Shown here: positions 35,862 to 55,801 of the stretch, one piece after another | Layout: each line of letters begins with the position of its first letter | Position numbering within the stretch: position 1 is the first letter of the stretch | DNA from: Kosakonia sacchari SP1 | GTDB taxonomy: Bacteria > Pseudomonadota > Gammaproteobacteria > Enterobacterales > Enterobacteriaceae | Direction: 5' to 3' | Length of the DNA stretch: 64,000 nucleotides | NCBI RefSeq assembly: GCF_000300455.3 | Contig: NZ_CP007215.2 | Coordinates: 1,116,001 to 1,180,000 of the forward strand | Position numbers and translations under genes: made by a program | Notes under the pieces: generated by a model | Seen by the model: only the letters and a program-made list of their open reading frames with translations | Databases searched by the model: none | What the model was told of the DNA's origin: nothing

Positions 35862-36308
35862 TTAAACGGAAATGCGGTAAACATTACCCGAAGCATCATT
35901 GCTGCGGTTGCCGCTTTCGCCATAAAGCTGCGCGGTGGCGGTCGTCTGGCTGACAATCTTTTTGAAGTCATTCATCTTCTTCATATGCATGTTCAGCAAC
36001 TGATAGCTTTTTTGATTGAGCTCAGCAGATTTTCGCACCACCACGGTAATGCGATCCCAAAGGGTGGCCAGTTCGGAGTGGTGCGGATAGGGAAATGTCA
36101 ACTGATGTTGTTTCTCTTCCTGTTTACGCTGCTCATCATAGAAGTTAATCGCTGATAACAAACGGCTCTTGTTGTCGGAGATCACTTGCAGCGACACCGG
36201 GTTTATCTGGGCGCGGCTAAGCTGACCAATTTCTTCTACCAGGGTCGCTTCAAGTTCACCCAGCAGCGTATACAGTTTGTTCAGAATTACGGGTAAGTTT
36301 TCCATCAT
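35862..36308 (-). CDS. flgN: FlgN, export chaperone for FlgK and FlgL
   Basis: A 148-residue helical chaperone that binds the hook-filament junction proteins FlgK and FlgL in the cytoplasm and escorts them to the export gate. The start (MENLPVILNKLYTLLGELEATLVEE) and the C-terminal LYGESGN fit the family. It is the last gene of flgA-flgM-flgN and is followed by 1.7 kb of non-coding DNA. Confidence 0.87.
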   Translation of the reverse strand: MMENLPVILNKLYTLLGELEATLVEEIGQLSRAQINPVSLQVISDNKSRLLSAINFYDEQRKQEEKQHQLTFPYPHHSELATLWDRITVVVRKSAELNQKSYQLLNMHMKKMNDFKKIVSQTTATAQLYGESGNRSNDASGNVYRISV

Positions 36309-36325
36309 TCACGTGCATGTTGAGA

Positions 36326-36625
36326 TTATGAGAATCTAAAGATGTCGCGTACCAACGCGCTGGCGATTTTATCGCTGTCCAGGTGGAGTTCACCTGCATC
36401 CATCTTCGCTTTAATGGCGGCAAGACGTTCCGTATTAACATCACGGCTGCCGTCATTTTTAATTTGCTGCGTCAGCTGGCTGAGTTTGACCTGCGTGCCG
36501 GCCTGCTGGGCGTCTGTTTTCCCCGATTGCGCGGATTCATCATTCATTATTTTCGTCTCAACGGGCTGTTGTTGAGTGCCGGTTGCCTGAATGGGATTGG
36601 CCTGGCGGGTGCGTTCAATGTTCAT
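36326..36625 (-). CDS. flgM: FlgM, anti-sigma-28 factor
   Basis: A 99-residue protein that binds FliA until it is exported through the finished hook-basal body. The N-terminus (MNIERTRQANPIQ) is the disordered export part. The C-terminal helices (SQLTQQIKNDGSRDVNTERL, ASALVRDIFRF) correspond to the FliA-binding region. A sigma-28 site lies 40-66 bp upstream, as in E. coli. The window also encodes fliA, so inhibitor and target are both local. Confidence 0.9.
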   Translation of the reverse strand: MNIERTRQANPIQATGTQQQPVETKIMNDESAQSGKTDAQQAGTQVKLSQLTQQIKNDGSRDVNTERLAAIKAKMDAGELHLDSDKIASALVRDIFRFS

Positions 36626-36664
36626 ACGGATCCTGGTTTTCTATGCGGTGGCTCTGTATTAAAG

Positions 36665-36693: not shown

Positions 36694-37395
36694 TCAGTTC
36701 GACAGGCTAATGCTCACTTGTCCTTGTCCTGTTACGGTGGCGACCACCACCTGGCCGGTTCGGGTCTGTACTCTGACGCTTTCATCGAGCGCTGCGTTAT
36801 CCAGCGCTTTACCTTTGGCGTGGATCAGAAAACCGTCACCCGGCGCGGTAATTTCGACGGTGCGATTAGCAATAACGGCCCAACTGCGGTGCAGCTGATT
36901 TTCTGCCAGCGGCGATCCCGGTTGAATGATGCGCGTGGGCGTGCTGCCAATAATGCTCTGCGGATCAAGCAATAACCCGGCCGGTAAACGATCCAGTTCA
37001 CCGCTCACGGGCTGGATATCCTCTGCGCTAATAATTTGCCCCGGTTTCAGCGTCTGCGCTGCCACCCAGTACCTGCCGGTGGCACTAATCTGAATCTGAA
37101 TGAACTGCTGCTTTTTGCCGCATTTGGCTATCACGCTGCGCCGACCTGTCAGGCGCACGGAGCGGCCCGAAAGCCGTAAATCCGGCTGCGCGCACAATGC
37201 GGCGAGTTTGGCCGCAGGGGTAAGAATTTTAATGCGCAGCTGCGGCTGATTCTCTGCTTCTTTATTGTCCGCAGCCAGCAGGGTGGTGATGCGAGCTTCG
37301 AGATCGCTGTTTTCCGGCGCGCTGGCAAAAGCCGGTGAGAACGGGCAGCAGAGCGCGACAATCACGATAAGCAACCGGATAAGGGACTGCGGCAT
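36694..37395 (-). CDS. flgA: FlgA, P-ring assembly chaperone
   Basis: A 233-residue periplasmic chaperone for FlgI. A signal peptide (LIRLLIVIVALCCPFSPAFA) is followed by the SAF domain (YWVAAQTLKPGQIISAEDIQPV, then GDGFLIHAKGKALDNA). It is divergent from flgB across 282 bp, the usual flagellar class II arrangement. The ATG at 37395 is preferred over an upstream TTG. Heads flgAMN. Confidence 0.9.
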   Translation of the reverse strand: MPQSLIRLLIVIVALCCPFSPAFASAPENSDLEARITTLLAADNKEAENQPQLRIKILTPAAKLAALCAQPDLRLSGRSVRLTGRRSVIAKCGKKQQFIQIQISATGRYWVAAQTLKPGQIISAEDIQPVSGELDRLPAGLLLDPQSIIGSTPTRIIQPGSPLAENQLHRSWAVIANRTVEITAPGDGFLIHAKGKALDNAALDESVRVQTRTGQVVVATVTGQGQVSISLSN

Positions 37396-37677
37396 AATGA
37401 GGTAAACCTGCCTTATAATATAAAGAAACAATAGGATTAATATTTTTTTATTGTAATTCAGGGTGGCTATTTTCTTATCTATTAAATGCCGTCAGTTTTG
37501 ACAGCATTTCACTGTATTGCTATTTCAACTTTTAAATATAAGCTTCTTTTCGGCAAATTAAGCGAAAGTGAATTGGCTAAATGCGTCAACTTCTGTCGGA
37601 TTTTTAAGGTATAGATTTATTAGGTTGTCTCTTAGACTATGCCTCGTAATCAATTTTCGAAGTAAGCGAGTCATTTC
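37396..37677. promoter_or_regulatory. Divergent flgA-flgB promoter region
   Basis: 282 bp of AT-rich DNA between divergent flagellar operons. In E. coli this interval holds FlhDC-dependent class II promoters for both. I could not delimit FlhDC boxes by eye. Confidence 0.5.
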
Positions 37678-38088
37678 ATGTTTGATAAACTTGATAATGA
37701 ATTGCGTTTCCAGCAGCAGGCGTTAAGCCTGATGTCGCGGCGGCAGGATATTTTAGCGTCCAATATCGCGAATGCCGATACGCCGGGATACAAGGCGCGA
37801 GATATTGATTTTTCAAAAGAATTGAAAAATGCAATGCAGCAGGAAACGCGTCATCCATTAACACTAAGTTTAACCGCCGGGAAACATATTCCTGGCGTAG
37901 CGCCGAAAACGGACAATCGACAATTACTTTATCGTATTCCCGATCAGCCAAGAGCTGATGGAAACACTGTCGATATGGATCGTGAACGCGTTAATTTTGC
38001 TGACAACAATGTCAAATATCAGACGAGTCTAACGATTCTCGGCGCTCAAATAAAAGGTTTAACGAGTGCCCTTAACCAAGGTCAATAA
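37678..38088 (+). CDS. flgB: FlgB, proximal rod protein
   Basis: A 136-residue rod subunit. It has the [26 protein letters not shown] motif that marks the N-terminal helix of axial proteins. The C-terminal helix is [19 protein letters not shown]. Close to E. coli length. First gene of a ten-gene rod, hook and ring operon. Confidence 0.95.
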
Positions 38089-38093
38089 TTTTC

Positions 38094-38498
38094 ATGTCGC
38101 TGTTTAGTGTTTTCGATATTTCAGGTTCGGCTATGGCCGCCCAATCAAAAAGACTTAACGTCAGTGCCAGCAATATGGCGAATGCCGACAGTATTGCCGG
38201 CCCGGATGGCAAACCGTACCGCGCGCGTTCGGTGGTGTTCAATGTCGACAATTCCGCTGGTCAGGAGATTGGTGGCGTGAAAGTGAGCGGCGTTACGGAA
38301 TCCACTGCGCCGGACAGACTGGTTTATGAACCCGCAAACCCACTGGCGGACGACAAAGGTTATGTCCATATGCCGAATGTCGATGTGGTGGGTGAAATGG
38401 TCAACACCATTTCCGCATCCCGCAGCTACCAGGCCAACGTCGAAGTGATGAACTCGGCGAAGAGCCTGATGCTGAAAACGCTGACTCTGGGCCAGTAA
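38094..38498 (+). CDS. flgC: FlgC, rod protein
   Basis: A 134-residue rod subunit, the same length as in E. coli. N-terminal axial motif [24 protein letters not shown] and C-terminal helix [25 protein letters not shown]. Five bases after flgB. Confidence 0.95.
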
Positions 38499-38508
38499 GG
38501 ATTAAAAA

Positions 38509-39231
38509 ATGGCAATTTCACCGGTCATGACCCAAAGCGCTGCGACGACGAAAACCACCTCCTCGTCTGGCACCAGTAACACCAATACCACCAGTTCTTC
38601 CAGCGTCGGTACCGGCTCCAGCGCCGACGATCTGCTGAATAACTTTATGACGCTGCTGGTTGCGCAGATGCAAAACCAGGATCCCACCAGCCCAATGGAC
38701 AACAACCAGCTGACTGCTCAGCTGGCGCAGTTCAACACGGCGGCGGGCGTCGAGCAGCTCAACAGCACCATGAACAGCATGGGCACGCTGGTCGCCAGTA
38801 TGCAGCAGATGAACTCCGCTGACTGGGTAGGCCGCGACATCATGGTCGAAGGCGAACCTTCAGTTTCCACCGCCACGGACGGAAACCAGAAAGTTGGGCT
38901 TTCCCTGAATAGCCCGGCGGATGAAGTCACCGTCACGCTGACCGATCCGGCCGGTAACGCCTATACCGCGAAGCTGAAAAATGTCGAAGCGGGCGTGCAT
39001 CAGTACTCGCTGGATGATTTTGAAGATTTCCAGCCGAGCGATCCGCGCTTGCAGGCCGACACGAACTTCAAAGTGTCGTTCTCCGCCACCAACGCCGACG
39101 GCAGCACGCCAACCATTACCGCATTGAAACCGGCGAAAGTGCAAAGCGTCTCCTTCACCAACTCAGGCGCGGTGCTGCAACTGGGTGTTAATGGTACCGC
39201 CTCGCTGAGTGACGTTTACCTCATCGAGTAA
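38509..39231 (+). CDS. flgD: FlgD, hook-capping protein
   Basis: A 240-residue scaffold that caps the growing hook. The N-terminal export/cap segment (NNFMTLLVAQMQNQDPTSPMDNNQLTAQLAQFNTA) is diagnostic. A Tudor/FnIII-like region follows. A Ser/Thr-rich stretch at residues 10-40 makes it slightly longer than the E. coli protein. Confidence 0.95.
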   Translation: MAISPVMTQSAATTKTTSSSGTSNTNTTSSSSVGTGSSADDLLNNFMTLLVAQMQNQDPTSPMDNNQLTAQLAQFNTAAGVEQLNSTMNSMGTLVASMQQMNSADWVGRDIMVEGEPSVSTATDGNQKVGLSLNSPADEVTVTLTDPAGNAYTAKLKNVEAGVHQYSLDDFEDFQPSDPRLQADTNFKVSFSATNADGSTPTITALKPAKVQSVSFTNSGAVLQLGVNGTASLSDVYLIE

Positions 39232-39276
39232 TTTTTAGTTTGGATTTTGCGCACCCCGCGCACAGGAATTTATCAC

Positions 39277-40476
39277 ATGGGTTTTTCTCAAGGTCTTAGT
39301 GGATTAAACGCCTCTTCACAGGCGCTGGATGTTGTAGGTAACAACATCGCCAACTCACAAACGGTCGGTTTTAAATCAGGTTCTGTGGCTTTCGCCGATG
39401 TGTTTGCCGGTTCTCAGGTCGGCATGGGCGTACAGGTTGCTGGTGTGAACCAGAACTTCAGCGATGGTGTACTCGGCGCAGGCAGCAGCCCGCTGGATAT
39501 GGGTATCCAGGGCAATGGCTTCTTCCGCATGGTGACCGAAGCGGGTCGCGTATTTTACAGCCGTAACGGCCAGTTCCAGACCGATGAAAATGGCTACGTC
39601 GTCAATAACCAGGGCATGCGCCTGACTGGTTATATGGCAACGGGTACACCGCCTGCGATTCAGCAGGGCGCACCGGTAGGGCCGATTCAGATCCCGACCG
39701 GGCAGATGCCTGCGCGTGCGTCTGACGCCGGTTCCATTTCCGGTAACCTGGATTCAGGCAACGAGATTGTCACGGTAACGCCTTTCGATCCGGCTAATGG
39801 CGACTCTTACACTTATTCCACTCAGGTCAACGCTTATGACAGCCTGGGCAACGAGCACGCGATCAACGTCTATTACGTGAAAACGGCCGACAACCAGTGG
39901 ACGGCCTACTCCGTAGACTCCACCTCGCCGGGTACCACCAGCTCTGTCAACCTGACATTTGATACCTCCGGCAAGCTCACCACCAACCCGGCGAACCTGC
40001 CGGTTGCGGGCGCGGCTTACCAGGGCGGCGCGGCGCTGAACTTCAACCTTGATCTCTCTGGTCTTTCGCAGCAGGCGTCGGAAAACACCATGGACAGCCC
40101 GAGCACCACCGGTTACCCGCCGGGACTGATGAACGGCTACACCGTGGGTGATAACGGCCAGATCATCGCCTCTTACAGCAATGGCGAAAACCAGTTGCTG
40201 GGTCAGGTGGTACTGAGCAACTTCACCAATCCGGGCGGTCTTCAGTCTGCGGGCAACAACTGCTGGACGGAAACCCCGGAATCCGGTCAGCCGGTCATTG
40301 GTATTGCCGACACCGGTAACCTCGGCTCGCTGCGCGGCAACATGCTGGAAGCCTCGAACGTGGATCTGAGTAAAGAGATGGTGAACATGATTGTTTACCA
40401 GCGTAACTACCAGTCCAACTCTCAGACCATCAAAACCCAGTCTGAGCTTCTGCAAACGCTGGTTAACCTGGGTTAA
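39277..40476 (+). CDS. flgE: FlgE, flagellar hook protein
   Basis: A 399-residue hook subunit. Start MGFSQGLSGLNASSQALDVVGNNIANSQTVGFKSG and end MVNMIVYQRNYQSNSQTIKTQSELLQTLVNLG are the D0 axial helices. The ATG at 39277 has CAGGAA upstream. The frame is open ten codons earlier without support. Hook D1/D2 domains in the middle are of normal size. Confidence 0.95.
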   Translation: MGFSQGLSGLNASSQALDVVGNNIANSQTVGFKSGSVAFADVFAGSQVGMGVQVAGVNQNFSDGVLGAGSSPLDMGIQGNGFFRMVTEAGRVFYSRNGQFQTDENGYVVNNQGMRLTGYMATGTPPAIQQGAPVGPIQIPTGQMPARASDAGSISGNLDSGNEIVTVTPFDPANGDSYTYSTQVNAYDSLGNEHAINVYYVKTADNQWTAYSVDSTSPGTTSSVNLTFDTSGKLTTNPANLPVAGAAYQGGAALNFNLDLSGLSQQASENTMDSPSTTGYPPGLMNGYTVGDNGQIIASYSNGENQLLGQVVLSNFTNPGGLQSAGNNCWTETPESGQPVIGIADTGNLGSLRGNMLEASNVDLSKEMVNMIVYQRNYQSNSQTIKTQSELLQTLVNLG

Positions 40477-40488
40477 GAGTAGCGCCTC

Positions 40489-41235
40489 ATGGATCACGCG
40501 ATTTATACCGCAATGGGGGCCGCAAACGCGGCCCTCAACCGCCAGGCGGTGACCTCTAACAACCTGGCGAATGCTTCTACCACCGGTTTTCGTGCGCAGA
40601 TCGCGGCGTTTCGCGCGATCCCTGTGCAGGGGCCGTCGATAGAAACCCGCACCATGGTGGCGGAATCCACGCCGTTTAGCGACAACACCATGGGCACGAT
40701 GCAGGCCACCGGGCGCAGCCTGGATGTCGCCATGCCGCAAAACGGTTGGCTGGCGGTGCAGTTGCCCGATGGCAGTGAAGGCTACACCAAAGATGGCAAC
40801 ATCGAAGTGGATGCCGAAGGTCAGCTGCGGGTGCGCGGTATGCCGCTGCTCGGTGATGGCGGCCCGGTAGCCGTACCGCCGCAGGCGGAACTGACTATCG
40901 CGGCGGACGGCACCATCACCGCGCTGGGCGCAGGCGATGAGCCTTCAGCGCTGGCGCAGGTGGCGCGCCTGAAAATGGTTAACGCCACACCAAACACGCT
41001 GAAACATGGTGACGACGGTCTGTTTCATGTCGCCGATCCGGCTGCAGCACAAGTGCTTCCCGCCGATGCGGATCTGCGCCTGATGCCCGGCATGCTGGAA
41101 GGCAGCAACGTCAGCCCGGTGAAATCAATGGTGGACATGATCGCCACCGCCCGTGGTTTTGACATGAACATGAAAGTCATCACCACCGTTGATGATAACG
41201 AACAAAAAGCTAACCAGTTACTGAGCGCCGGTTAA
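40489..41235 (+). CDS. flgF: FlgF, proximal rod protein
   Basis: A 248-residue rod subunit: MDHAIYTAMGAANAALNRQAVTSNNLANASTTGFRAQ and C-terminal KSMVDMIATARGFDMNMKVI. Thirteen bases after flgE. Confidence 0.95.
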   Translation: MDHAIYTAMGAANAALNRQAVTSNNLANASTTGFRAQIAAFRAIPVQGPSIETRTMVAESTPFSDNTMGTMQATGRSLDVAMPQNGWLAVQLPDGSEGYTKDGNIEVDAEGQLRVRGMPLLGDGGPVAVPPQAELTIAADGTITALGAGDEPSALAQVARLKMVNATPNTLKHGDDGLFHVADPAAAQVLPADADLRLMPGMLEGSNVSPVKSMVDMIATARGFDMNMKVITTVDDNEQKANQLLSAG

Positions 41236-41258
41236 GCCCCGATAAGGAGAAATAGACC

Positions 41259-42041
41259 ATGATCCGTTCTTTATGGATTGCGAAAACCGGCCTCGAAGCC
41301 CAGCAAACCAATATGGATGTGATTTCCAACAACCTGGCGAACGTCAGCACCAACGGCTTTAAACGCCAGCGTGCGGTGTTTGAAGATCTGATTTATCAGA
41401 CCTTACGCCAGCCGGGCGCGCAGTCTTCCGAGCAGACCACCATCCCTTCTGGTTTACAGCTGGGTACTGGTGTTCGCCCGGTTGCGACCGAGCGCATTCA
41501 CAGCCAGGGCAGCCTGACGCAGACCAACAACAGCAAAGACGTCGCTATTCAGGGCAGCGGTTTCTTCCAGGTACAGTTGCCGGATGGCACCACCGCCTAT
41601 ACCCGTGACGGCTCGTTCCAGTTTGACCAGAACGGACAGCTGGTGACCTCCAGCGGTTATCAGGTGCAACCGGCGATCACTATCCCGCAGGACGCGCAAA
41701 GCCTGACCATCGGTAACGACGGTATTGTCAGCGTGACCGTGCCGGGGCAGACCGCGCCGCAGCAGGTTGGTCAGCTAACGCTGAGCTCATTTATCAATGA
41801 TTCCGGCCTCGAAAGCATTGGTGAAAACCTGTATCGCGAAACGCAATCCTCTGGCGCACCGAATGAATCCACACCGGGTTTAAACGGCGCAGGCACCCTG
41901 AAACAGGGTTATGTCGAAACCTCGAACGTTAACGTCGCAGAAGAGCTGGTCAACATGATCCAGACCCAGCGCGCCTACGAAATTAACAGTAAAGCGGTGT
42001 CGACGTCTGACCAGATGCTGCAACGACTGACTCAACTTTGA
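41259..42041 (+). CDS. flgG: FlgG, distal rod protein
   Basis: A 260-residue distal rod subunit, identical in length to E. coli Flg[37 protein letters not shown] and the end [28 protein letters not shown] are diagnostic. AAGGAGAAA precedes the ATG. Confidence 0.96.
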
Positions 42042-42090
42042 TCCCTGGCCGCGGGTCTTGCTCGCGGCTGCTTTACCTGTAGTGAATGAA

Positions 42091-42804
42091 ATGACCAATC
42101 ACCCTTGCTCTGTACGTACGCTTTGTCGTTTGGCAACGACTTTTATGCTGATTTCCGTGGTTACCGGCTGCGCCTATATTCCGCAAAAACCGTTGGTGGG
42201 GGGCGAAACCTCCGCCATGCCTGCGCCGGTCGCCGCCGCTACCGCGAATGGCTCGATTTTTCAGACAGGGCAGGCGATGAATTATGGTTATCAACCGATG
42301 TTTGAAGACCGCCGTCCACGAAATGTGGGCGATACGCTGACCATTGCGCTGCAAGAAAATGTCAGCGCCAGCAAAAGTTCCTCGGCGAGTGCCTCGCGTG
42401 ATGGCTCCACCGATGTTGGCGTCGCTGGCGTACCCGGTTTTATGGCCGGTCTGGTGGGCAACGGCAAAGCCGATGCGTCGATCAGTGGAACGAATGACTT
42501 CGCCGGGAAAGGCGGCGCGGCGGCGAAAAATACCTTTAGCGGCACCATCACCGTGACGGTGAAACAGGTGCTGGAAAACGGCAACCTGGCGGTTGTCGGC
42601 GAAAAACAGATTGCGATTAACCAGGGGACTGAGTTTATCCGCTTCTCCGGCATCGTGAACCCACGCACGATCAGCGCCAGCAACACTGTTATCTCCACCC
42701 AGGTGGCGGACGCGCGCATCGAGTATGTCGGTAATGGCTATATCAACGAAGCGCAGCAAATGGGCTGGCTGCAGCGCATGTTCCTTAACCTTTCTCCTTT
42801 TTGA
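42091..42804 (+). CDS. flgH: FlgH, outer-membrane L-ring lipoprotein
   Basis: A 237-residue L-ring subunit. The signal ends in the lipobox VVTGC, so Cys is lipidated. The mature part has the FlgH segments [25 protein letters not shown] and [23 protein letters not shown]. The ATG at 42091 gives a normal lipoprotein signal. The frame is open 11 codons earlier. Confidence 0.94.
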
Positions 42805-42807
42805 TTG

Positions 42808-43926
42808 ATGATGAAAACGAATTTCTTAACCCGCTGCCTGGCGCTGCTGTGCTGTCTGTCTGCGCTGGTGGCCGGGCAGGCCAGCGCGGAGCGGATCCGC
42901 GATTTAACTACTCTGCAAGGGGTGCGCGGTAACTCCCTGATGGGCTATGGCCTGGTGGTCGGTCTTGATGGCACCGGTGACCAGACCATGCAGACGCCGT
43001 TTACCACCCAGAGCCTGAACAACATGCTCTCGCAACTGGGTATCACCGTACCCGCTGGCGTGAATATGCAGCTCAAAAACGTCGCGGCGGTAATGGTGAC
43101 GGCGGAACTGCCGCCGTTTGCCCGCGCCGGTCAGCAGATTGACGTGGTGGTTTCCTCCATGGGTAACGCGAAAAGCCTGCGCGGCGGCACGCTGCTGATG
43201 ACCCCGCTGAAGGGGGCCGATAGCCAGATCTATGCGCTGGCGCAGGGGAACCTGTTGGTTTCCGGCGCAGGCGCGCAGGCCGGTGGTAACCGGGTGCAGG
43301 TCAACCAACTCAATGGCGCGCGCATTAGCGGTGGCGCAACAGTTGAACGTGAAGTGCCGTCGAACTTTGCCGGACAAGGCTCGCTCAAGCTCCAGCTTAA
43401 TGAAGATGATTTCACCGTGGCGCAGCAGATAAGCGATGCCATCAACCGCCGTTTCGCGGGCGCCGCGTTTGCGGAAGATGCTCGCAGCATTAGCCTGCGC
43501 GCACCTGCCGACAGCGCCGCGCGTGTGCGTTTCCTTGCGGCAGTGCAGGATATTCCGCTGCGCGTTGATGCGGGCGACGCCCGAATTATCATCAACTCGC
43601 GTACCGGATCGGTGGTGATGAACCGCCATGTTTCGCTGGATTCCTGTGCGGTTGCGCAGGGCGATCTGACGGTAGAAGTCGCCAACAACACTCAGGTGAA
43701 TCAGCCGAATACGCCGCTGGCGGGCGGGCAAACGGTGGTCACGCAGAACACGCAGCTTTCGGTGCGTGAGCAAAACGGTTCTCTGCAACGCGTAAACACC
43801 AGCACCGATCTGAACAATGTGGTGCGTGCGTTAAATAACCTTGGCGCAACGCCGAATGATTTGATGGCAATCCTGCAATCGATGAAAACCGCAGGCTGCC
43901 TGCATGCGCGTCTGGAGATTAACTGA
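42808..43926 (+). CDS. flgI: FlgI, P-ring protein
   Basis: A 372-residue periplasmic P-ring subunit. A signal peptide ([17 protein letters not shown]) is followed by [33 protein letters not shown]. The end is [34 protein letters not shown]. Either of two adjacent ATGs (42808, 42811) may be used. It overlaps flgJ by one base. Confidence 0.95.
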
Positions 43927-44885
43927 TGATCGGCCCGGCAATGACGCAGGGGGCGGCGTTTGACGCGCACAGCCTCGATAAACTGAAACTGGCCGCCCGC
44001 AACGACTCCCCGGATGCGTTAAAGGCGGTAGCGAAGCAGATGGAAGGGCTATTCGTGCAGATGATGCTCAAGAGCATGCGCCAGGCCTCCTTCAAAGACG
44101 GGCTGTTCAATACGCAGCAGTCGGAGATGTTTACCTCGATGTATGACCAGCAGCTGTCGCAGAACATCGCCGATAAAGGAAAAATGGGTTTTGCCGATCT
44201 GATGGTGCAACAACTGACCGGCAAACCCGCTTCCACGGCGGAAAATGTCACCGCGACACGTGAAGTGCCGCTTAATATCAGCCCGGCACGCTTTATCAGC
44301 GTGCCGCTGCGTTTGCAGCCGGTCGACCCTGAAGAACAGCAGGCTGAAAAAACCGCCACGCCGCAGCCGGAAATACCGGCGGTTCCGGGCGGCAGCTTTA
44401 TTTCCCGCATGATGGCACCTGCGATGGCGGTCGCGCGTTTAAGCGGTATTCCGCATCAGTTAATTATTGCGCAGGCGGCACTGGAATCCGGTTGGGGTAA
44501 ACGCGAAATTATGACCAGCGATGGCAAACCGAGTCATAACTTATTTGGCGTGAAAGCCACGGCGGATTGGGATGGCGAAACCACAGAAATTACCACCACG
44601 GAATATGAAGGTGGTGTCGCGCAAAAAATAAAAGACAAATTTAAAGTCTATTCCTCTTATGCCGAGGCGCTGGAAGATTATACGTCGTTAATTAGTCGTA
44701 GTCCGCGTTATAAAAATGTTGTGAAATCTGAATCGCCGGAAATAGCGGCAAAAGCGTTGCAGTCTGCCGGATATGCAACCGATCCTGCGTATGCGAAAAA
44801 ATTGATCAGCATCATTCAGCAAGTGAAGAATAACGTCAATCAGGCGGCTGAAGCCTATTCGTCAGATTTTTCTTCATTATTTTAA
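43926..44885 (+). CDS. flgJ: FlgJ, rod cap and peptidoglycan hydrolase
   Basis: A 319-residue dual protein. The N-terminal rod-cap domain (AVAKQMEGLFVQMMLKSMRQASFKDGLF) is joined to a C-terminal glucosaminidase domain (PHQLIIAQAALESGWGKREIMT, HNLFGVKATADWDG) that opens the cell wall for the rod. The catalytic Glu lies in ALESGWG. Overlaps flgI by one base (TGATG). Confidence 0.95.
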   Translation: MIGPAMTQGAAFDAHSLDKLKLAARNDSPDALKAVAKQMEGLFVQMMLKSMRQASFKDGLFNTQQSEMFTSMYDQQLSQNIADKGKMGFADLMVQQLTGKPASTAENVTATREVPLNISPARFISVPLRLQPVDPEEQQAEKTATPQPEIPAVPGGSFISRMMAPAMAVARLSGIPHQLIIAQAALESGWGKREIMTSDGKPSHNLFGVKATADWDGETTEITTTEYEGGVAQKIKDKFKVYSSYAEALEDYTSLISRSPRYKNVVKSESPEIAAKALQSAGYATDPAYAKKLISIIQQVKNNVNQAAEAYSSDFSSLF

Positions 44886-46627: not shown

Positions 46628-46674
46628 GTACGCCCGGTTTACCGGGCCACTCAATGAAAAGTCAGGAATAAACG

Positions 46675-47705: not shown

Positions 47706-49367
47706 ATGTTTAAAGACTTAAAAATATCCACCGGGATTAATATCCTGTTTGGGTTGTTAATTGCTTGTATTATTTTGGTCTCTGCCTATGCGCTGGTCAG
47801 TAGCCGCTCGACGGCGGATAACTTCGATGATGCAGTAATGACCAATGACAACATCGATATGCTGAATAGCGCAATTGTCGGCTTGACGGGAGGTATTGCT
47901 CAGGTTAACGGCGCCATGGTCGCGACCATGATCAACCAGCCGGTGGATCAGACTGATATCGACAAAGCAAAGCAAATGCTCGCGACTGCGGAAAAGCAGA
48001 TGGACAAATTTATGTCCACGCCGTTCCAGACCGAGGAAGAGCAGACAATTGCCGCCAATATTAAGAAGCGTTTTGATACGGTTCTGACGAGTGCGCAGCG
48101 GAAAGTAACGTTTATTAAAAACCCGACGGCGTATGATCGCGATGTGATTGACGAAGCCAAAAACCGTGTTGCGGTACAAGAGGCAGCTCAAGAATATCTG
48201 GCTTATGCCGAGCAATTGATTTCCGGTTTTAGCGATGTATCGCACAGTGACACTCAGCGTATGACCTTTTTCGCGTTCTTTGCTCTGGCTCTGGCGATCA
48301 TTAGCGCGGTGGGTTCTCGTATCTGGTTGAAACGCACTATTTTCAACCGTCTGGAACAGGCTGTTGTCTCCTTCCAGGCTATCGCTGGCGGTAACCTGAG
48401 CAACAAAATTGACGCCGGTGCGCAGAACGAAATCGGCCAAATGTTGCAGGAAGTGGAGCATATGCGCCAGTCTCTGACCGACACGGTGTACGGTATTCGT
48501 AATGGCGTGAAGCAGATTTACTCTAACGCCCAGGAAATCGCCACCAGCAACAACGATCTCTCTTCGCGTACCGAGCAGCAGGCTTCCGCTCTGCAGGAAA
48601 CTGCGGCCAGCATGGAAGAGCTGAAAATCACCGTGCGTCAGAACGCCGATAACGCCCACAGCGCTCAACAACTGGCAGAAAGCGCCAGCGCCAGCGCGCA
48701 GAAAGGCGGCGAAGTCATGACCAATCTTGATAAGATCATGACAGAAATTACGGTAAACTCCCGTCAAATTGCCGACATCAACAGCGTGATCGATAGCATT
48801 GCAAACCAGACCAACATCCTGGCGCTTAACGCGGCGGTTGAAGCGGCGCGTGCCGGTGAACAGGGTCGTGGTTTTGCGGTGGTTGCCGGTGAAGTGCGTA
48901 ACCTGGCGAAACGCAGCGCCGACGCGGCGAAAGAGATCCGCCAGTTGATCAACACCTGTGTTGCCAATATGAATATCGGTTCCCAGGAAGTTGAACTGGC
49001 AGGTTCTTCGATGCAGGAAATTGTGAAATCCGTTATTCAGGTAACCGACATTATGGCGGAAATTACCTCGGCATCGGATGAGCAAAGCACCGGTATTAAC
49101 CAGATTGCGCAGGCCGTTAATGAAATGGATCTGGTAACGCAGCAGAACGCCAGCATGGTTGAGAACGCCGCGCGCACCGCAACCAGCGTGGAAGAACATG
49201 CCAGCGATCTGGAACAAATTGTCGCACAGTTTGTTGTCAATGAAAGCCACGTATCGGTTGTTACCCGTGAAAGAAATAACAGCGAGAAATTGCGCCCAGT
49301 TATTACCACTACCAAGCGAGATTATGTTCCTGTCAAGAAAACTGAAGGCGACTGGGAAACATTTTAA
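47706..49367 (+). CDS. Methyl-accepting chemotaxis protein inside the flagellar locus
   Basis: A 553-residue chemoreceptor. TM1 is at about 9-30, the periplasmic domain to about 190, TM2 at about 191-210, then HAMP and the signalling hairpin with EAARAGEQGRGFAVVAGEVRNL. It ends GDWETF, a CheR/CheB tether close to NWETF. The periplasmic domain differs from that of the receptor at 3839-5509. It lies between flgL and fliA, an unusual place. No sigma-28 site is obvious upstream. The ligand is unknown. Confidence 0.92.
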   Translation: MFKDLKISTGINILFGLLIACIILVSAYALVSSRSTADNFDDAVMTNDNIDMLNSAIVGLTGGIAQVNGAMVATMINQPVDQTDIDKAKQMLATAEKQMDKFMSTPFQTEEEQTIAANIKKRFDTVLTSAQRKVTFIKNPTAYDRDVIDEAKNRVAVQEAAQEYLAYAEQLISGFSDVSHSDTQRMTFFAFFALALAIISAVGSRIWLKRTIFNRLEQAVVSFQAIAGGNLSNKIDAGAQNEIGQMLQEVEHMRQSLTDTVYGIRNGVKQIYSNAQEIATSNNDLSSRTEQQASALQETAASMEELKITVRQNADNAHSAQQLAESASASAQKGGEVMTNLDKIMTEITVNSRQIADINSVIDSIANQTNILALNAAVEAARAGEQGRGFAVVAGEVRNLAKRSADAAKEIRQLINTCVANMNIGSQEVELAGSSMQEIVKSVIQVTDIMAEITSASDEQSTGINQIAQAVNEMDLVTQQNASMVENAARTATSVEEHASDLEQIVAQFVVNESHVSVVTRERNNSEKLRPVITTTKRDYVPVKKTEGDWETF

Positions 49368-49496: not shown

Positions 49497-50225
49497 GTGA
49501 ATGGATTATATAGCCCTGACGGGTCAATTCAGAAAGACCAGTTGTGGACCAAATACGGTTATTTGGTTCGCTATGAAGCGTTAAAGATGCAGTCTAAATT
49601 ATCGTCAAGTGTTGATATTGACGATCTTATTCAGGCGGGTGCTATTGCGCTTCTGGATGCAATCGAACAGTTTGACCCCAAAAAAGGGGTCAAACTCACG
49701 GTCTATATTGCACAGCGTTTACGTTGGGCCTTTATGGATGAATTACGCGAACACGATTGGGTACCTCGCCGCGTTCGCCGTAAAACCCGTGAAGTTTCTT
49801 CTGCCATTATGCGCGTTGAGCAACGTGCCGGTGGCGTGGCAAGTGAGTCGGACATTGCTGCTGAATTAGGGATGAGCTTGCAGGAATATCAGCAAGTATT
49901 ATCCGATACTAATACCAGCATGCTCTGTTCACTCGACGAGCTACAGGAATTACTGGCAGATGGTGTTGAGCTGTCAGAAATGGAACAGGATCATCTTGAC
50001 CCGCTCAACGATGTTTTACTGGGCGATTTGACAAAGCAGATCAGTAAGGAGATCAGAGAACTTCCTGAGCGCGAGCAGATGCTACTCAATTTATATTATC
50101 AACAGGAGTTGAATATGAAAGAGGTCGGTTCACTGCTGGGGATTACCGAAACGCGCGTCAGCCAGTTGCATAGTCAAACGATCAAACGTTTACGTGCACG
50201 TCTGGAAGGAAGAGGCTGGGAATAA
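49497..50225 (+). CDS. fliA: FliA, flagellar sigma-28 factor
   Basis: A 242-residue sigma factor for late flagellar genes. Region 2 has VDIDDLIQAGAIALLDAIEQFD and AQRLRWAFMDELREHDWVPRRVRR. Region 4 has LPEREQMLLNLYYQQELNMKEVGSLLGITETRVSQLHSQTIKRLR. The start is GTG (as in E. coli). Compared with the E. coli protein as I recall it, region 3 and the linker are clearly diverged. It is not followed by fliZ. It stands directly before flhDC, which is not the E. coli arrangement. Confidence 0.93.
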   Translation: MNGLYSPDGSIQKDQLWTKYGYLVRYEALKMQSKLSSSVDIDDLIQAGAIALLDAIEQFDPKKGVKLTVYIAQRLRWAFMDELREHDWVPRRVRRKTREVSSAIMRVEQRAGGVASESDIAAELGMSLQEYQQVLSDTNTSMLCSLDELQELLADGVELSEMEQDHLDPLNDVLLGDLTKQISKEIRELPEREQMLLNLYYQQELNMKEVGSLLGITETRVSQLHSQTIKRLRARLEGRGWE

Positions 50226-50410
50226 TAAGGCATCAGGAAAATCTTGCACCGATTAAATTTCGACCAGGCCGGCTTTCCTTATTAGGTTCATTATTTCCGT
50301 TTAACCTTGATTTCTTATACTAAAAAATTGGCATTAAACTTGTTACATCTTGGTTACACAATAAAGGACGGTAATTGCAGTTTGAATTACCTTGTACAGG
50401 GGGAATTGTA
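50226..50410 (+). promoter_or_regulatory. flhDC promoter and leader region
   Basis: 185 bp of AT-rich DNA between fliA and flhD with no gene. A sigma-70-like promoter is possible near TTGTTA...CACAAT (about 50340-50365). It is much shorter than the long flhDC leader of E. coli. Confidence 0.35.
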
Positions 50411-50758
50411 ATGAACGTAACAAACTTTAATGAGCCGACACAGTGTATTCGGGACTTGAATCTTTCCTATTTGTTATTGGCGCAACGTCTCATTCACGAG
50501 GACCGCTTTACGGCAAAATTTCGCCTGGGCTTAAGTGAGTCCACTATCGATATTGTGAAAGGATTGACGTTTCCGCAGCTTATTAAACTTTCGTCAACCG
50601 GTCAGCTTATTTGCCGGTTACGCATAGATAACGAAACAGTGATTGACTGTTTAACTAAAGATTCCCGTATTGATGCTTTACAAAGTATCCATACCGGAAT
50701 CATTTTATCCACTGATTTGCTTAATTCTCTTTCTGAGGACGAGCCTTCGAGATCCTGA
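50411..50758 (+). CDS. flhD: FlhD, flagellar master regulator subunit
   Basis: A 115-residue FlhD. LNLSYLLLAQRLIHEDRFTAKFRLGLSES and the end DSRIDALQSIHTGIILSTDLLN are the family core. With FlhC it forms the heterohexamer that switches on class II flagellar operons. The ATG at 50411 has GGGGG seven bases upstream. The frame is open 12 codons earlier without homology. Divergence from the E. coli protein is visible throughout. Confidence 0.92.
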   Translation: MNVTNFNEPTQCIRDLNLSYLLLAQRLIHEDRFTAKFRLGLSESTIDIVKGLTFPQLIKLSSTGQLICRLRIDNETVIDCLTKDSRIDALQSIHTGIILSTDLLNSLSEDEPSRS

Positions 50759-50772
50759 CAGCGGAGTTTGTA

Positions 50773-51321
50773 ATGTGTGAAAAAAGCATAATGTCAGAAA
50801 TCAGGGATGCGCAAATTGCCATGGAATTGATTTCTTTTGGCGCAAGGATGCAGGTTCTCGAAAGTGAAACCAATCTTAGCCGCAGAAGATTATTAAAACT
50901 GTATAAAGAACTCAAAGGCTGTTCGCCGCCGAAAGGCATGTTACCGTTTTCCACCGATTGGTATATGGCGTGGGAACAAAATATTCATTCGTCAATGTTT
51001 TATAACATTTATTGTTATCTGCAAAAAACCGAATTGGGTCGTCCCGTTGAGATTATGCTCAAAGGCTATCGCCTGTATCTGGAAAATAGTCTGAATGGTA
51101 CAGAGAAAAAGCCTGTTTTAGGTTTAACGCGCGCCTGGACGCTGCTGCGGTTTATTGATTGCGGCATGGTTAAACATACTGAGTGCAGCACGTGTGGCGG
51201 GCGTTTTATTACCACGCCGGAAAATACCAACACCAATTTTACTTGCTGTTTGTGTTTTCCACCTTCGCGGGCAATTAAAAAAGCTACGCCTGATCTGGCG
51301 CGTTCTCATCGGCGACAGTAA
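50773..51321 (+). CDS. flhC: FlhC, flagellar master regulator subunit
   Basis: A 182-residue FlhC. MELISFGARMQVLESETNLSRRRLLKLYKELKG and GMLPFSTDWYMAWEQNIHSSMFYNIY are diagnostic. The zinc site is intact: C-x2-C in ECSTCGG, then CCLC in FTCCLCFPPSRA. Fourteen bases after flhD. The C-terminal tail is about ten residues shorter than in E. coli. Confidence 0.93.
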   Translation: MCEKSIMSEIRDAQIAMELISFGARMQVLESETNLSRRRLLKLYKELKGCSPPKGMLPFSTDWYMAWEQNIHSSMFYNIYCYLQKTELGRPVEIMLKGYRLYLENSLNGTEKKPVLGLTRAWTLLRFIDCGMVKHTECSTCGGRFITTPENTNTNFTCCLCFPPSRAIKKATPDLARSHRRQ

Positions 51322-51397: not shown

Positions 51398-52288
51398 GTG
51401 TTAGTCATTATTGGCTATATCGTCGTTTTCGCGACCGTATTTGGCGGCTTTGCGCTCAGTGGCGGCAATCTTGCGTCACTGTTTCAGCCTACCGAGTTTT
51501 TAATTATCGGCGGGGCAGGCGTAGGGGCTTTTATTGTCGGAAATAACGGTAAAGCGATCCGGGCCACCTTAAAAGCATTTCCTACTTTGTTTAAAGGTTC
51601 CCATTTCACCAAAGCGTTATATATGGATCTGCTGGCGATGATGTATCTGTTGCTGGCGAAAGGCCGCCAGAACGGCCTGGTATCGCTGGAAAACGATATT
51701 GAAGATCCGCAAAACAGCCCGATTTTCTCGGCCTATCCACGGCTGATGGCCGACAGTGAAATCATGAATTTCATCACCGATTATCTGCGCCTGATGGTGA
51801 GCGGTAATACCAACGCCTTCGAAATGGAAGCGTTGATGGATGAAGAGATTGAGACCTGCGAACACGAGCATGAAGTGCCGGCGCATAGCCTTAATTCTGT
51901 CGGTGATGGGTTGCCTGCATTCGGTATCGTGGCGGCGGTAATGGGGGTGGTGAACGCCCTGGCGGCGGCCGATCGTCCCGCAGCCGAACTGGGTGCGCTG
52001 ATTGCCCACGCCATGGTCGGTACCTTCCTCGGTATTTTGATGGCCTACGGCATGGTGCTGCCGCTGGCGACGTTGCTGCGCCAGCGTAGCGCGGAACACC
52101 TGAAAATGCTTGAGTGCATTAAAACCATGCTGCTTTCCAGCATGAACGGTTATGCGCCGCAGATCGCCGTTGAATTTGGCCGTAAGACCCTCTTTTCCAC
52201 GGAACGTCCAAGCTTCGCGGAACTGGAAGATCATGTGCGCGAAGTGCGTACCTCAAGCGCTTCATCCTCTTCGGGTGAGTCGACATGA
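51398..52288 (+). CDS. motA: MotA, stator proton-channel subunit
   Basis: A 296-residue protein with four membrane spans and a large cytoplasmic loop. FGGFALSGGNLASLFQPTEFLIIGGAGVGAF and GDGLPAFGIVAAVMGVVNAL (with the conserved Pro of span 3) are typical. GTG start with AAGGAG upstream. Overlaps motB by 4 bp. Partner of MotB in the proton-driven stator. Confidence 0.95.
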   Translation: MLVIIGYIVVFATVFGGFALSGGNLASLFQPTEFLIIGGAGVGAFIVGNNGKAIRATLKAFPTLFKGSHFTKALYMDLLAMMYLLLAKGRQNGLVSLENDIEDPQNSPIFSAYPRLMADSEIMNFITDYLRLMVSGNTNAFEMEALMDEEIETCEHEHEVPAHSLNSVGDGLPAFGIVAAVMGVVNALAAADRPAAELGALIAHAMVGTFLGILMAYGMVLPLATLLRQRSAEHLKMLECIKTMLLSSMNGYAPQIAVEFGRKTLFSTERPSFAELEDHVREVRTSSASSSSGEST

Positions 52289-53241
52289 GTAAGAAGTCTG
52301 CCACTACCATTGTTGTCCGCAGATCCATCAATAAAAAGCATGGTTCACATGGCGGTTCCTGGAAAATCGCCTATGCGGATTTTATGACCGCAATGATGGC
52401 GTTTTTCCTGGTGATGTGGCTGCTCTCTTCTTCCAGCCCGGAGCAGCGCCAGCAGATTGCTGAATACTTCAAAATGCCGATGAAAACCACGCTGGCGCAG
52501 GGCGATAAAGCGAGCCTTAGCGACAGCATGATCCCCGGCGGCGGCGAAGATGTCATCAAACAAGATGGCGAAGTTTTCAAACGAACGTTGCAGCAACTGG
52601 ACGCGAAGAAGAGTGAAGTCAACCTGAAGCGGGCGAGAGAGAAGCTGGAAAGCCTGATCCAAATCGATCCGCGCCTGAACAACTTCACCTCCAACCTGCG
52701 GCTTTCGCTGACCGATGACGGATTGCTGATTCAGATCACCGATAGCGCGGATCGTCCGATGTTCAAAATCGGCCGACCGACGCCCGAAAGCTACATGGTG
52801 AATATTCTGCAGGCGCTGGTGCCGGTGTTAAACGACATGCCGAACCGCATCATTGTGACCGGCCATACGGATTCACTGCCTTACGCTAACGGTGAGCAGG
52901 GCTACAGCAACTGGGAGCTCTCTTCCGATCGTGCCAACGCGGCGCGGCGCATCCTGGCCGGTGCCGGGCTTGCCAGCAATAAATTTATCCGCGTTATCGG
53001 TACGGCGGACACCATGATGCAGGCCGGTTCCGATGCGGCCGATCCCATTAACCGCCGGATCAGTATCCTGGTGCTGAGCCAGCAAAAAGAGAAACAGATC
53101 ATGCAAGAAGATGTGCTTTTGCGCGACACGCTGGTTTCAACCCCGGCAAGCCCGAGTGCATTAGCCACCGACGCGCCGCCGCAAAGCAGCCCGGTGGCAG
53201 TTGAACCTACGGTAAAAAGCGGTCCTGAGGAGAGTAAGTAA
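52285..53241 (+). CDS. motB: MotB, stator peptidoglycan-anchored subunit
   Basis: A 318-residue protein. HGGSWKIAYADFMTAMMAFFLVMWLLSS holds the single span with the proton-accepting Asp. The OmpA-like peptidoglycan-binding domain is in the C-terminal half (IIVTGHTDSLPYANGEQGYSNWELSSDRANAARRIL). Overlaps motA and abuts cheA. Proton-type rather than sodium-type by the AYADFM motif. Confidence 0.95.
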   Translation: MSKKSATTIVVRRSINKKHGSHGGSWKIAYADFMTAMMAFFLVMWLLSSSSPEQRQQIAEYFKMPMKTTLAQGDKASLSDSMIPGGGEDVIKQDGEVFKRTLQQLDAKKSEVNLKRAREKLESLIQIDPRLNNFTSNLRLSLTDDGLLIQITDSADRPMFKIGRPTPESYMVNILQALVPVLNDMPNRIIVTGHTDSLPYANGEQGYSNWELSSDRANAARRILAGAGLASNKFIRVIGTADTMMQAGSDAADPINRRISILVLSQQKEKQIMQEDVLLRDTLVSTPASPSALATDAPPQSSPVAVEPTVKSGPEESK

Positions 53242-55254
53242 ATGGACATAAGCGATTTTTATCAGGCCTTTTTTGACGAGGCGGATGAGCTGATGGCGGA
53301 TATGGAAAAGTATCTGCTGGAGCTGGATCTCGACTCACCGGACAGAGAAGTTCTGAATGCGATTTTTCGCGCTGCGCACTCGATAAAAGGCGGTGCGGGC
53401 ACCTTTGGTTTCACGGTGTTACAGCAAACCATGCACATCCTGGAAAACCTGCTGGATGATGTACGCAGCGGTACGTTGACGATTACCGGCCCTATTCGCG
53501 ATCTGTTTTTGGAGAGCAAAGATATTATGCAGGATCAACTGGATGCCTATAAAGCGTCCGCGGAGCCCGACGAAGAGACGTTCAACTATATTTGCGATGC
53601 ACTGCGCCAGATAGCGCTCGATGGCGCGGCTCCCGCTACGGTTTCCACAGATGTCGCCGCGCCGGTTGCTGCCGAGGCAGTGGTTGCAGACACGGTTGCG
53701 GCACCGGAGGCGAAACCAGCCGAGGACGGTCAGCGACTGCGCATCGTGCTGAGCAAAATCAAAGAAGATGATCGCCAGCCGCTCATTGATGAAATGGGCA
53801 ATTTAGGTCGCGTGAGCCAGTTGCAGACCGAGAATGAGAGCCTGCAATTGACGCTGCACACCACGGCATCCCCGGACGATATTCTGGCGGTGCTGTGTTT
53901 TGTGCTCGAACCGGAACAGATTTCCATCGCCCCGGCCCCGGCTGAAGAAGAACCGGTTGCCGCATCCGGTGAAGCTGCGGCAGCAACGCCTGCGGCAGTG
54001 AACGCGGTAGCGGCACCGGCCGCACCGGCAGCGCGTGCGACACGCCCGGAAAATAACCGCCAGCGCCCGCAAGCGACAGAAGCCAGCAGCATTCGCGTGG
54101 CGGTCGAGAAGGTTGACCAGATAATCAACCAGGTGGGTGAGTTGATCATCACCCAGGCGATGCTTTCACAGCTTTCCAGTGTGCTCGATTCCACCAATCA
54201 CGACACGCTGATTAGCACCATTGCGCAGCTCGAACGTAACGCGCGCGACTTGCAGGAGTCGGTGATGTCGATTCGCATGATGCCAATGGAATATGTCTTT
54301 AGCCGCTTCCCGCGTCTGGTGCATGACCTGGCCGGTAAGCTGAATAAAGAAGTGGAACTGACGCTGGTTGGCGGTTCTGCTGAGCTTGATAAACGTCTTA
54401 TCGAACAGATTGTCGATCCGTTAACGCACCTGGTGCGTAACAGCCTCGATCACGGGATTGAACCGGTTGATGTGCGCCGCGCCAATGGTAAAGCCGACAA
54501 GGGCAACCTGGTGCTTTCTGCGGAACACCACGGCGGCAATATCATCATTGAAGTCACCGACGATGGCGCCGGGCTGAACCGCGAGAAGATCCTGGCACGC
54601 GCGCAAATGCAGGGCATGACCATCAGCGACAACATGAGCGATGAAGATGTCTGGATGCTGATTTTCGCGCCGGGCTTCTCTACGGCGGAAAAAGTGACCG
54701 ATGTCTCTGGTCGCGGCGTTGGCATGGACGTGGTGCGTCGTAACATTCAGGAAATGGGCGGACATGTGACCGTCCACTCCGAGCAGGGGCGCGGTTCGAA
54801 GATCCGCATTATTCTGCCGCTGACGCTGGCGATCCTCGATGGGATGTCGGTGCGCGTTGGTTCGGAAATCTACGTTCTGCCGCTCGGCAGCATGATGGAA
54901 TCGTTAATGCTTTCGGAAAATACGCTGCACCGGATGACCGGCGGCGAGCGCATGTTGCAGGTGCGCGAAGAGTATTTGCCGCTGGTTGAGCTGGGCACGC
55001 TGTTTGGCATTCACGACGAGGATTACGATATCAGCGAAGGGATTGCCGTCATTGTACAGAGCGCCGGTAGCCGTTACGCCTTGTTGGTGGATCAACTGAT
55101 CGGTCAGCACCAGGTGGTGGTGAAAAATCTTGAGCAGAACTACCGCAAAATTCCGGGTATTTCTGCGGCGACCATCCTTGGCGATGGCAGCGTCGCGTTG
55201 ATTCTGGATGTGGCGGTTCTAACGACGCTGGCGAAAAGCGCCAGAGCGCACTGA
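53242..55254 (+). CDS. cheA: CheA, chemotaxis histidine kinase
   Basis: A 670-residue kinase. P1 has the phosphorylated His in RAAHSIKGGAGTF (about residue 48), followed by P2 at about 155-225 and an Ala/Pro-rich linker. Then P3 (QIINQVGELIITQAMLSQ), P4 with the N box HLVRNSLDHGIEP and the G boxes DDGAGLN and GRGVGMDVV, and a CheW-like P5. Complete. An internal start for a short CheA is possible but not examined. First base follows the motB stop. Confidence 0.96.
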   Translation: MDISDFYQAFFDEADELMADMEKYLLELDLDSPDREVLNAIFRAAHSIKGGAGTFGFTVLQQTMHILENLLDDVRSGTLTITGPIRDLFLESKDIMQDQLDAYKASAEPDEETFNYICDALRQIALDGAAPATVSTDVAAPVAAEAVVADTVAAPEAKPAEDGQRLRIVLSKIKEDDRQPLIDEMGNLGRVSQLQTENESLQLTLHTTASPDDILAVLCFVLEPEQISIAPAPAEEEPVAASGEAAAATPAAVNAVAAPAAPAARATRPENNRQRPQATEASSIRVAVEKVDQIINQVGELIITQAMLSQLSSVLDSTNHDTLISTIAQLERNARDLQESVMSIRMMPMEYVFSRFPRLVHDLAGKLNKEVELTLVGGSAELDKRLIEQIVDPLTHLVRNSLDHGIEPVDVRRANGKADKGNLVLSAEHHGGNIIIEVTDDGAGLNREKILARAQMQGMTISDNMSDEDVWMLIFAPGFSTAEKVTDVSGRGVGMDVVRRNIQEMGGHVTVHSEQGRGSKIRIILPLTLAILDGMSVRVGSEIYVLPLGSMMESLMLSENTLHRMTGGERMLQVREEYLPLVELGTLFGIHDEDYDISEGIAVIVQSAGSRYALLVDQLIGQHQVVVKNLEQNYRKIPGISAATILGDGSVALILDVAVLTTLAKSARAH

Positions 55255-55291
55255 GACAGAGCCTGACGTCAGTTTTTAAAAAGGTTAAGAA

Positions 55292-55801
55292 ATGAATTTA
55301 TCTAACACAAATAAGCAGTTAACCGGTGACAACACGGGGAATGAGTTCCTGGTGTTTCGCCTGGGCACCGAAGAGTACGGCATTGAGATCTTGAAAGTAC
55401 AAGAGATCCGTGGTTACGACCGCGTGACGCGCATTGCCAACACGCCTGCTTTTATTGCCTGTGTGACCAACCTGCGCGGCGTGATCGTGCCGATCGTCGA
55501 TCTGCGCGTGAAATTTGAACTGGCTTCCGCCGAGTTTGACGACAATACGGTGGTGATTGTGCTGAGCCTCGACAGCGGCCGCGTGGTCGGGATTGTGGTT
55601 GACGGCGTTTCCGATGTGCTGGCGCTTAATGCAGAGCAGATCAAACCTGCGCCGGAATATACCGTTACGCTCTCGACACAATATTTACTGGGTCTTGGCT
55701 CGCTCGATGAGCGCATGCTGATTCTGGTCGATATTGAAAAGCTGCTGAACAGCGAAGAGATGGAGCTGATTGAACGCGTGACCGAGACCTCGTTTAACTA
55801 A
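55292..55801 (+). CDS. cheW: CheW, receptor-kinase coupling protein
   Basis: A 169-residue adaptor: [55 protein letters not shown] is the family core. It links receptors to CheA. It ends the operon. The tar, tap, cheR, cheB, cheY and cheZ genes that follow in E. coli are absent and a terminator comes 31 bp later. Confidence 0.96.

Follow-up and report, generated by a model that had tools for sequence, protein, structure and literature searches.

Supernumerary flagellar systems are known in the Enterobacterales, and among them flag-3 has been described as a set of gene blocks, of which block 3 reads flgNMABCDEFGHIJKL-fliA-flhDC-motAB-cheAW (De Maayer 2020, PMC7526173). In most loci of the flag-3b type, block 3 is followed by block 2 (fliCDST) and then block 1 (flhEAB-cheZYBR-fliE-R) (PMC7526173). 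Here we analyze a flagellar and chemotaxis gene block of Kosakonia sacchari SP1, at positions 35862–55801 of a 64,000-nucleotide stretch (contig NZ_CP007215.2, 1,116,001 to 1,180,000; hereafter, the window). This block is block 3 of the flag-3b locus, also called KFS2. Most probably, a recent deletion associated with an IS3-family insertion sequence (IS) removed the other half of the locus, leaving a relic unable to build a flagellum of its own.

Proteins of flag-3 and of the primary system, flag-1, are reported to be 52% identical, it has been argued that parts of the two may not be interchangeable, and the peritrichous flagellum attributed to flag-3b is a prediction only (PMC7526173). According to the available text of that study, Kosakonia is among the flag-3b genera, with the locus in 15 of 24 Kosakonia strains, and 6 of 95 flag-3b loci contain transposases, pseudogenes or en bloc deletions; that text does not name SP1. 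Becker 2018 (PMC6125372), in the sections available, states that 'K. oryzae SP1 has half of KFS2' and that one strain of the K. sacchari group (R4-368) has KFS2. We take 'K. oryzae SP1' to be the present strain, because the methods of that paper list SP1T in the K. sacchari group. In K. radicincitans given root exudate, KFS2 flhC and flhD went down 24- to 27-fold while KFS1 went up (PMC6125372).

A flag-3b block and its missing partner genes

The block consists of uninterrupted open reading frames (ORFs) for flgNMA, flgB-L, a methyl-accepting chemotaxis protein (MCP), fliA, flhDC, motAB, cheA and cheW. Genes flgN, flgM and flgA lie on the minus strand, flgB-L through cheW on the plus strand, and the MCP gene falls between flgL and fliA. 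Using tblastn with E. coli MG1655 proteins, we identified 21 flagellar or chemotaxis genes and one MCP gene, bearing out the gene list, order and orientation given in an earlier note on this DNA. Pfam confirmed all six block proteins that were run, namely FlgN, FlgM, FliA (sigma70 r2/r3/r4), FlhD, FlhC and the receptor (TarH/HAMP/MCPsignal). Against E. coli flag-1, the 21 proteins are between 26% (FlgN) and 85% (FlgG) identical, with a mean of ∼54%; FlgG, FlgC, MotA and CheW lie at 68–85%, and FliA, FlhD and FlhC, which the earlier note rightly called clearly diverged, at 49%, 53% and 58%. The note was also right that E. coli keeps the counterparts of these genes in at least three loci, as they are spread over three separate regions of MG1655. 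Within SP1, the cheA of the block and that of flag-1 share 65% identity. The likely start codon of block flhD is the ATG at 50411, in place of the listed TTG at 50375.

We compared the block with other Kosakonia genomes (labelled G001, G002 and so on), SP1 being G000; in all, 15 genomes of the genus were searched, SP1 included. Block FliA is 86–99% identical to the copies of ten other Kosakonia genomes, versus 48–49% to flag-1 FliA. A FliA at least 86% identical to that of the block is thus present in 11 of the 15 genomes, SP1 included; the best value is 59% in G001, and none exceeds 48% in G005, G006 and G012. FlhC is the one protein for which a tree was built (32 rows), FlgE, FlgK and FliA being judged by identity. 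In this tree, the block protein groups with Kosakonia flag-3b copy #1, and the flag-3 type stands apart from flag-1, Burkholderia and Moellerella proteins on branches with 100/100 support. The closest named records with the block FlhC are those of Kosakonia quasisacchari and K. pseudosacchari (99%). G001 carries a diverged flag-3 locus (G001:C12, L189–L192). Next to its fliA there is flhD and no recognisable flhC, and a further flhDC stands apart, ∼5 kb beyond the flgA end.

The SP1 genome is a single contig of 4,902,027 bp with a completeness of 100%. A tblastn search of it for second copies of the block genes recovered a complete flag-1 set in three other regions (Table 1), with identities to E. 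coli of 42–95%, mostly 60–95%, flagellin aside. The block is therefore supernumerary, as the earlier note had considered, and it shows neither the complete gene set nor the high similarity to E. coli that mark the primary system. In the stretches examined, fliZ was found only beside flag-1 fliA and not beside block fliA. SP1T is described as motile with peritrichous flagella in the available text of PMC4149035.

In relatives, the cluster goes on where that of SP1 ends. The full flag-3b arrangement was read through in five of them (G007, G011, G002, G008 and G015), and in each, block 3 leads on to fliC, fliDS(T), flhEAB-cheZYBR-fliE-R and another flhDC. In SP1, homology to the nearest relative stops at an IS. 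Blocks 2 and 1 thus follow block 3 in these relatives and not in SP1. A match to FHIPEP (FlhA) lies within 20 kb of the flag-3b fliA in 10 of the 11 genomes, SP1 being the one without, and also in G001. By tblastn against G007, the genes lost in SP1 are fliC, fliD, fliS, flhEAB, cheZYBR, fliE-R and flhDC #2; the only genomes with a recognised fliT are G002 and K. cowanii.

Searches of the whole SP1 genome did not recover these genes. FHIPEP matched two of its genes only, flag-1 FlhA and one at 36 kb that belongs to a type III-like cluster. G007 DNA queries of 20 kb (fliC–fliM) and 5 kb (fliN–flhDC #2) detected no copy of the missing half. They matched flag-1 copies, other flagellins, type III-like genes and flhDC #1, all at 65–80%, plus one match of 26 bases; 40 of 92 first-look candidates were scored for the longer query and 40 of 58 for the shorter, and a ∼95% copy should rank first. 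In the 80 kb to the right of the window, tblastn with E. coli proteins found no flagellar gene beyond one weak sigma-factor match (37%). The lack of export genes, MS ring, C ring, flagellin and cheRBYZ described in the earlier note is therefore real for this system, in the window, in these 80 kb and in the whole-genome DNA searches. Relocation of the other half within the genome was rejected on the FHIPEP searches (genome and genus) together with the two DNA searches.

The second flhDC lies beyond fliR, in inverted orientation, in the flag-3b loci of G007, G008, G011, G002 and G015. Its FlhC forms a Kosakonia clade of its own (99/95 support, six rows), and a complete flag-3b locus plus flag-1 thus implies three FlhDC pairs per cell. 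When 392 genomes of the family were searched with FlhC, 240 had a match at 1e-40; there were two matches in SP1 and three each in G002, G003 and G013, and no further listed genome had three. One record with a complete flag-3b locus, FOAY01000001.1 (L034, L184–L186), is titled Kosakonia sacchari strain SP1. Its 5.5-Mb genome shows 68–82% DNA identity to the left flank of the window, and the record looks mislabelled.

The breakpoint and its flanks

Throughout the block, the window runs collinear with G007 at 95.7% DNA identity, rising to 99.3% over the last 408 bases before the IS, up to 56208. There the IS begins, within what in G007 is a 250-aa ORF (Table 1). The IS itself encodes a transposase with rve domains (56245–57054) and a second ORF (57096–57380). 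To its right, 57480–58605 has no match in G007, G008, G011, G002, G015, G012 or G005, and one 46-base match (80%) in G006. Next comes an element that we label P4-like, with primase-helicase domains (Pfam) and similarity to E. coli regions whose annotation includes primase-helicase and Icd-like genes; ssrA follows at genome 1185296–1185659, beside a 402-aa ORF that, read by eye, is a putative integrase. Part of the P4-like element also lies beside the flag-3b locus in G011. Relative to that genome, ∼32 kb (50378 to 82586 of its stretch) is replaced by some 2.4–2.7 kb in SP1.

SP1 holds eight copies of the IS, 1230–1272 bp long, and the other seven differ from the window copy by 0–1 substitution or gap over the aligned length. 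Among the ten flag-3b relatives, nine have only partial or diverged matches to the IS and one has none; the strongest, 100% identical over 955 bp, lies on contig 1 of G011. Several of the SP1 copies carry one or more extra 40-bp right ends, and two copies have no extra repeat.

Table 1. Positions of the flag-3b features and of the sequences used for comparison (window coordinates unless stated)
Feature	Position	Strand	Evidence
SgrR-family regulator gene (SgrR_N + SBP_bac_5), left end of flag-3b insertion	32534..34183	+	
flgN (flag-3b)	35862..36308	-	tblastn, Pfam
flgM (flag-3b anti-sigma-28)	36326..36625	-	tblastn, Pfam
flgA (flag-3b)	36694..37431	-	tblastn
flgB-flgJ (rod, hook, L and P rings, FlgJ)	37678..44885	+	tblastn
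flgK, flgL (hook-filament junction)	44987..47598	+	tblastn
Chemoreceptor (MCP: TarH, HAMP, MCPsignal)	47706..49367	+	tblastn, Pfam
fliA (flag-3b sigma-28)	49497..50225	+	tblastn, Pfam
flhD + flhC, copy #1 of flag-3b locus (copy #2 of relatives missing here)	50411..51321	+	
motA, motB (flag-3b)	51398..53241	+	tblastn
cheA, cheW (flag-3b)	53242..55801	+	tblastn
3' remainder of ORF cut by IS (250 aa in G007, 39585-40337 of G007 stretch)	55906..56208	-	
IS3-family element; left end is exactly the left breakpoint; repeated 40-bp right end	56209..57479	-	
Stretch without match, right side of truncation	57480..58605		
P4-like element (primase-helicase and others), continuing past window towards ssrA	58606..64000	-	
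flag-1 fliE-R, fliDST with three tandem flagellins, fliAZ	genome 1.857-1.894 Mb		
flag-1 flhDC-motAB-cheAW-tar-tap-cheRBYZ-flhBAE	genome 1.917-1.940 Mb		
flag-1 flgNMA/flgB-L	genome 2.911-2.923 Mb		
Second flhDC in Kosakonia flag-3b stretches	L033 9654-10504; L035 9654-10513; L034 9666-10537		

The left flank tells of further change at this site. In G012, G005 and G001, it continues without an SgrR-like gene, and no flag-3b sequence was found there; the SgrR-family gene was likewise not found beside the left flank in G006, and all four genomes lack a complete flag-3b locus here. What G006 keeps, immediately beyond the left flank, is a broken cheW piece of flag-3b type (L182 919–1110; 67% to window CheW, residues 52–105, plus a short DNA match). 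G006 thus once had a flag-3b locus here and lost nearly all of it, an independent loss. The ssrA flank is reached within about 10–17 kb in G012 and G005. The flag-3b locus thus sits in an ssrA-side hotspot for insertions, where it has been truncated on at least two occasions.

Identities of left flank, block and right flank are 95.2, 96.0 and 94.5% for G007 and 94.5, 92.6 and 94.6% for G011. For left flank and block, they are 84.1 and 83.2% for G002 and 91.4% (over 7.7 kb) and 94.3% for G008, with the right flank uncovered in both. Because block and flanks are similarly identical to relatives, the comparison suits mainly vertical descent of the flag-3b block within the group. The fit is imperfect: G008 resembles SP1 more in the block than in the flank, and in the FlhC tree the window protein pairs with G008, not with G007.

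Other flagellum-like genes lie away from this locus. A cluster of FlhA-, FliI-, FliP- and FlhB-like genes at genome 35969–44594 (27–41% to E. coli flagellar proteins), with no further flagellar matches in genome bases 1–80000 by tblastn, is probably a type III secretion system. At genome 3256277–3258085, away from the flagellar loci, an orphan flagellin gene lies beside a diverged cheZ. That these are displaced flag-3b pieces is unsupported: the CheZ-like protein is 39% identical to G007 flag-3b CheZ and 42% to flag-1 CheZ, and the missing-half DNA matches only the flagellin (73–74%). Outside the flagellar block, at 3842–5503 on the minus strand, the window holds a second gene for a Tar-like chemoreceptor (52% to E. 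coli Tar).

Sites resembling sigma-28 promoters number 112 in the whole window, against a shuffle mean of 48.6, and are spread everywhere, coding regions included, so the count says little about promoters. The best such sites upstream of flgM, flgK and fliA lie at near-equal offsets in SP1, G007, G008, G011 and G002, the flgM site being absent in G015. Of 500 single 250-base shuffles, 100 score at least 9/12 and 7 reach 10; the scan is weak and is not used as evidence.

Age of the deletion and competing explanations

The synonymous distance of the SP1 branch, computed from pairwise distances, is ∼0.08. If the IS caused the loss, the loss would have come late on this branch, because the IS copies differ at only 0–1 in ∼1270 positions. 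One caveat here is that gene conversion between IS copies could mimic a young age.

To gauge selection, we used the 22 block 3 genes of five genomes. The ratio of nonsynonymous to synonymous divergence (dN/dS) is 0.047 for SP1 versus G007 over 6198 codons. Private nonsynonymous and synonymous changes, counted only at codons identical in the other four genomes, are 6:83 in SP1, 12:97 in G007, 14:128 in G008 and 36.5:178.5 in G011, giving a ratio of 0.072 for SP1 compared to 0.109–0.204 for the three relatives. Since the deletion seems young relative to the branch, this test has almost no power for the time after it; the low dN/dS probably records mostly the time before, and we dropped it as proof of present function.

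With the IS-associated deletion, the flag-3b (KFS2) locus in the ssrA-side hotspot would have lost fliC, fliDS(T), flhEAB-cheZYBR, fliE-R and the second flhDC. Going by what is established about how flagella are assembled, a block without its own MS and C rings, export gate, flagellin and cheRBYZ would make no flagellum of its own, and FlgM-3b would have no exit of its own; swimming would depend on flag-1, which is complete. Should transcription of block 3 persist, FlhDC-3b would be expected to drive the rod and hook genes and fliA, and FlgM-3b, lacking its cognate exporter, would tend to keep FliA-3b inactive. The half locus may thus be silent or mildly wasteful and would be expected to decay. 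By analogy, KFS2 seems to be off when flag-1 is raised in K. radicincitans, which has a complete KFS2, and this fits a silent relic. The earlier note called the block self-regulated, which stands as to gene content, with FlhDC, FliA and FlgM present, and fails in that no flag-3b secretion apparatus is there for FlgM export and the second flhDC is lost.

Several observations weigh against such a deletion and decay. None of the 22 genes is damaged, and dN/dS shows no rise on the SP1 lineage, observations also compatible with continued use. The right breakpoint is imprecise, with 1.1 kb at the junction that has no homolog in the flag-3b relatives. No target-site duplication is visible at the window IS, and direct proof of an IS-mediated event is lacking. 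As none is evident at the other IS copies either, we dropped target-site duplications as an argument for IS-mediated deletion.

The first alternative is that the retained half serves as an accessory to flag-1, with FlhDC/FliA/FlgM-3b giving regulatory input, MotAB, CheAW and the MCP joining the flag-1 motor and arrays, and rod and hook parts perhaps passing through the flag-1 gate. We consider this unlikely. In its favour, every one of the 22 ORFs is uninterrupted and aligns with the closest relatives from end to end or nearly so, dN/dS is low along the SP1 branch, and FlgG, FlgC, MotA and CheW are as similar to E. coli flag-1 proteins as given above. However, the low dN/dS probably mostly predates the deletion, as the near-identity of the IS copies against a synonymous distance of ∼0.08 suggests. 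The mean identity of ∼54% to E. coli flag-1 and the argument that parts may not be interchangeable (PMC7526173) also speak against it, as does the strong decrease of KFS2 flhDC with root exudate in K. radicincitans while KFS1 rose (PMC6125372). The more specific version, in which flag-1 has captured the FlhDC/FliA/FlgM-3b switch and the MotAB-CheAW-MCP set, as a hybrid motor or an extra regulatory input without the cognate FlgM exporter, appears a little less likely still.

It is quite improbable that the missing half reflects an assembly error, that is, an IS-bounded contig dropped from the finished genome. The break does fall at a multi-copy IS, and the available text of PMC4149035 describes how, in a PacBio assembly, sequence from earlier Illumina data took the place of 227 disrupted genes. 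Yet the same text gives 63-fold PacBio coverage with 4–10 kb inserts, which should span a 1.27-kb IS, and the genome is a single contig with full completeness. 'Half of KFS2' was also stated for SP1 by another group in the sections available of PMC6125372, though probably from the same record. Finally, the suggestion in the earlier note of a rearranged primary system with its other half elsewhere, prompted by a gene order unlike that of E. coli and by half of the genes missing locally, is refuted by the complete flag-1 set in conventional blocks and by the FHIPEP and DNA searches, which found no flag-3b partner genes in the genome.

Comparison with known systems

The SP1 block by itself matters little, and its locus type and half state are already in print. 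As far as we have seen, the breakpoint, its rough dating and the second flhDC are new: a literature search judged by titles and abstract openings, supplements excluded, gave no prior report of the breakpoint or the second flhDC. What the block offers is a clean natural experiment. A supernumerary flagellar system was halved, apparently so recently that its regulators, motor and hook genes remain undamaged; the genes for export, flagellin and adaptation have disappeared, whereas close relatives retain the full set. With it, one could test directly whether regulators and parts of flag-1 and flag-3 can replace one another, a question raised by De Maayer 2020. It also means that block 3 genes do not suffice to score a genome as having a flag-3 locus.

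With the flag-1 systems of E. coli MG1655 and of SP1 itself, the block shares homologous parts and, by gene content, the FlhDC-FliA-FlgM regulators; it differs in its mean identity to E. coli (∼54%), in its gene order and in being incomplete. Like KFS2 of K. radicincitans, it is a second flagellar system, a likeness that rests on the description in the available text of Becker 2018; for the half present in SP1, that text lists no genes and describes neither a breakpoint nor a mechanism. To flag-3b of De Maayer 2020, it corresponds in the gene content and order of block 3 and in the absence of fliZ. An MCP gene is present in many of those loci too, though the available text describes it beside fliC. 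The second flhDC after fliR, seen here in Kosakonia loci, is not mentioned in that text. The chief difference is that SP1 is without blocks 2 and 1, and its block is a truncated remnant of a flag-3b locus, not a complete member.

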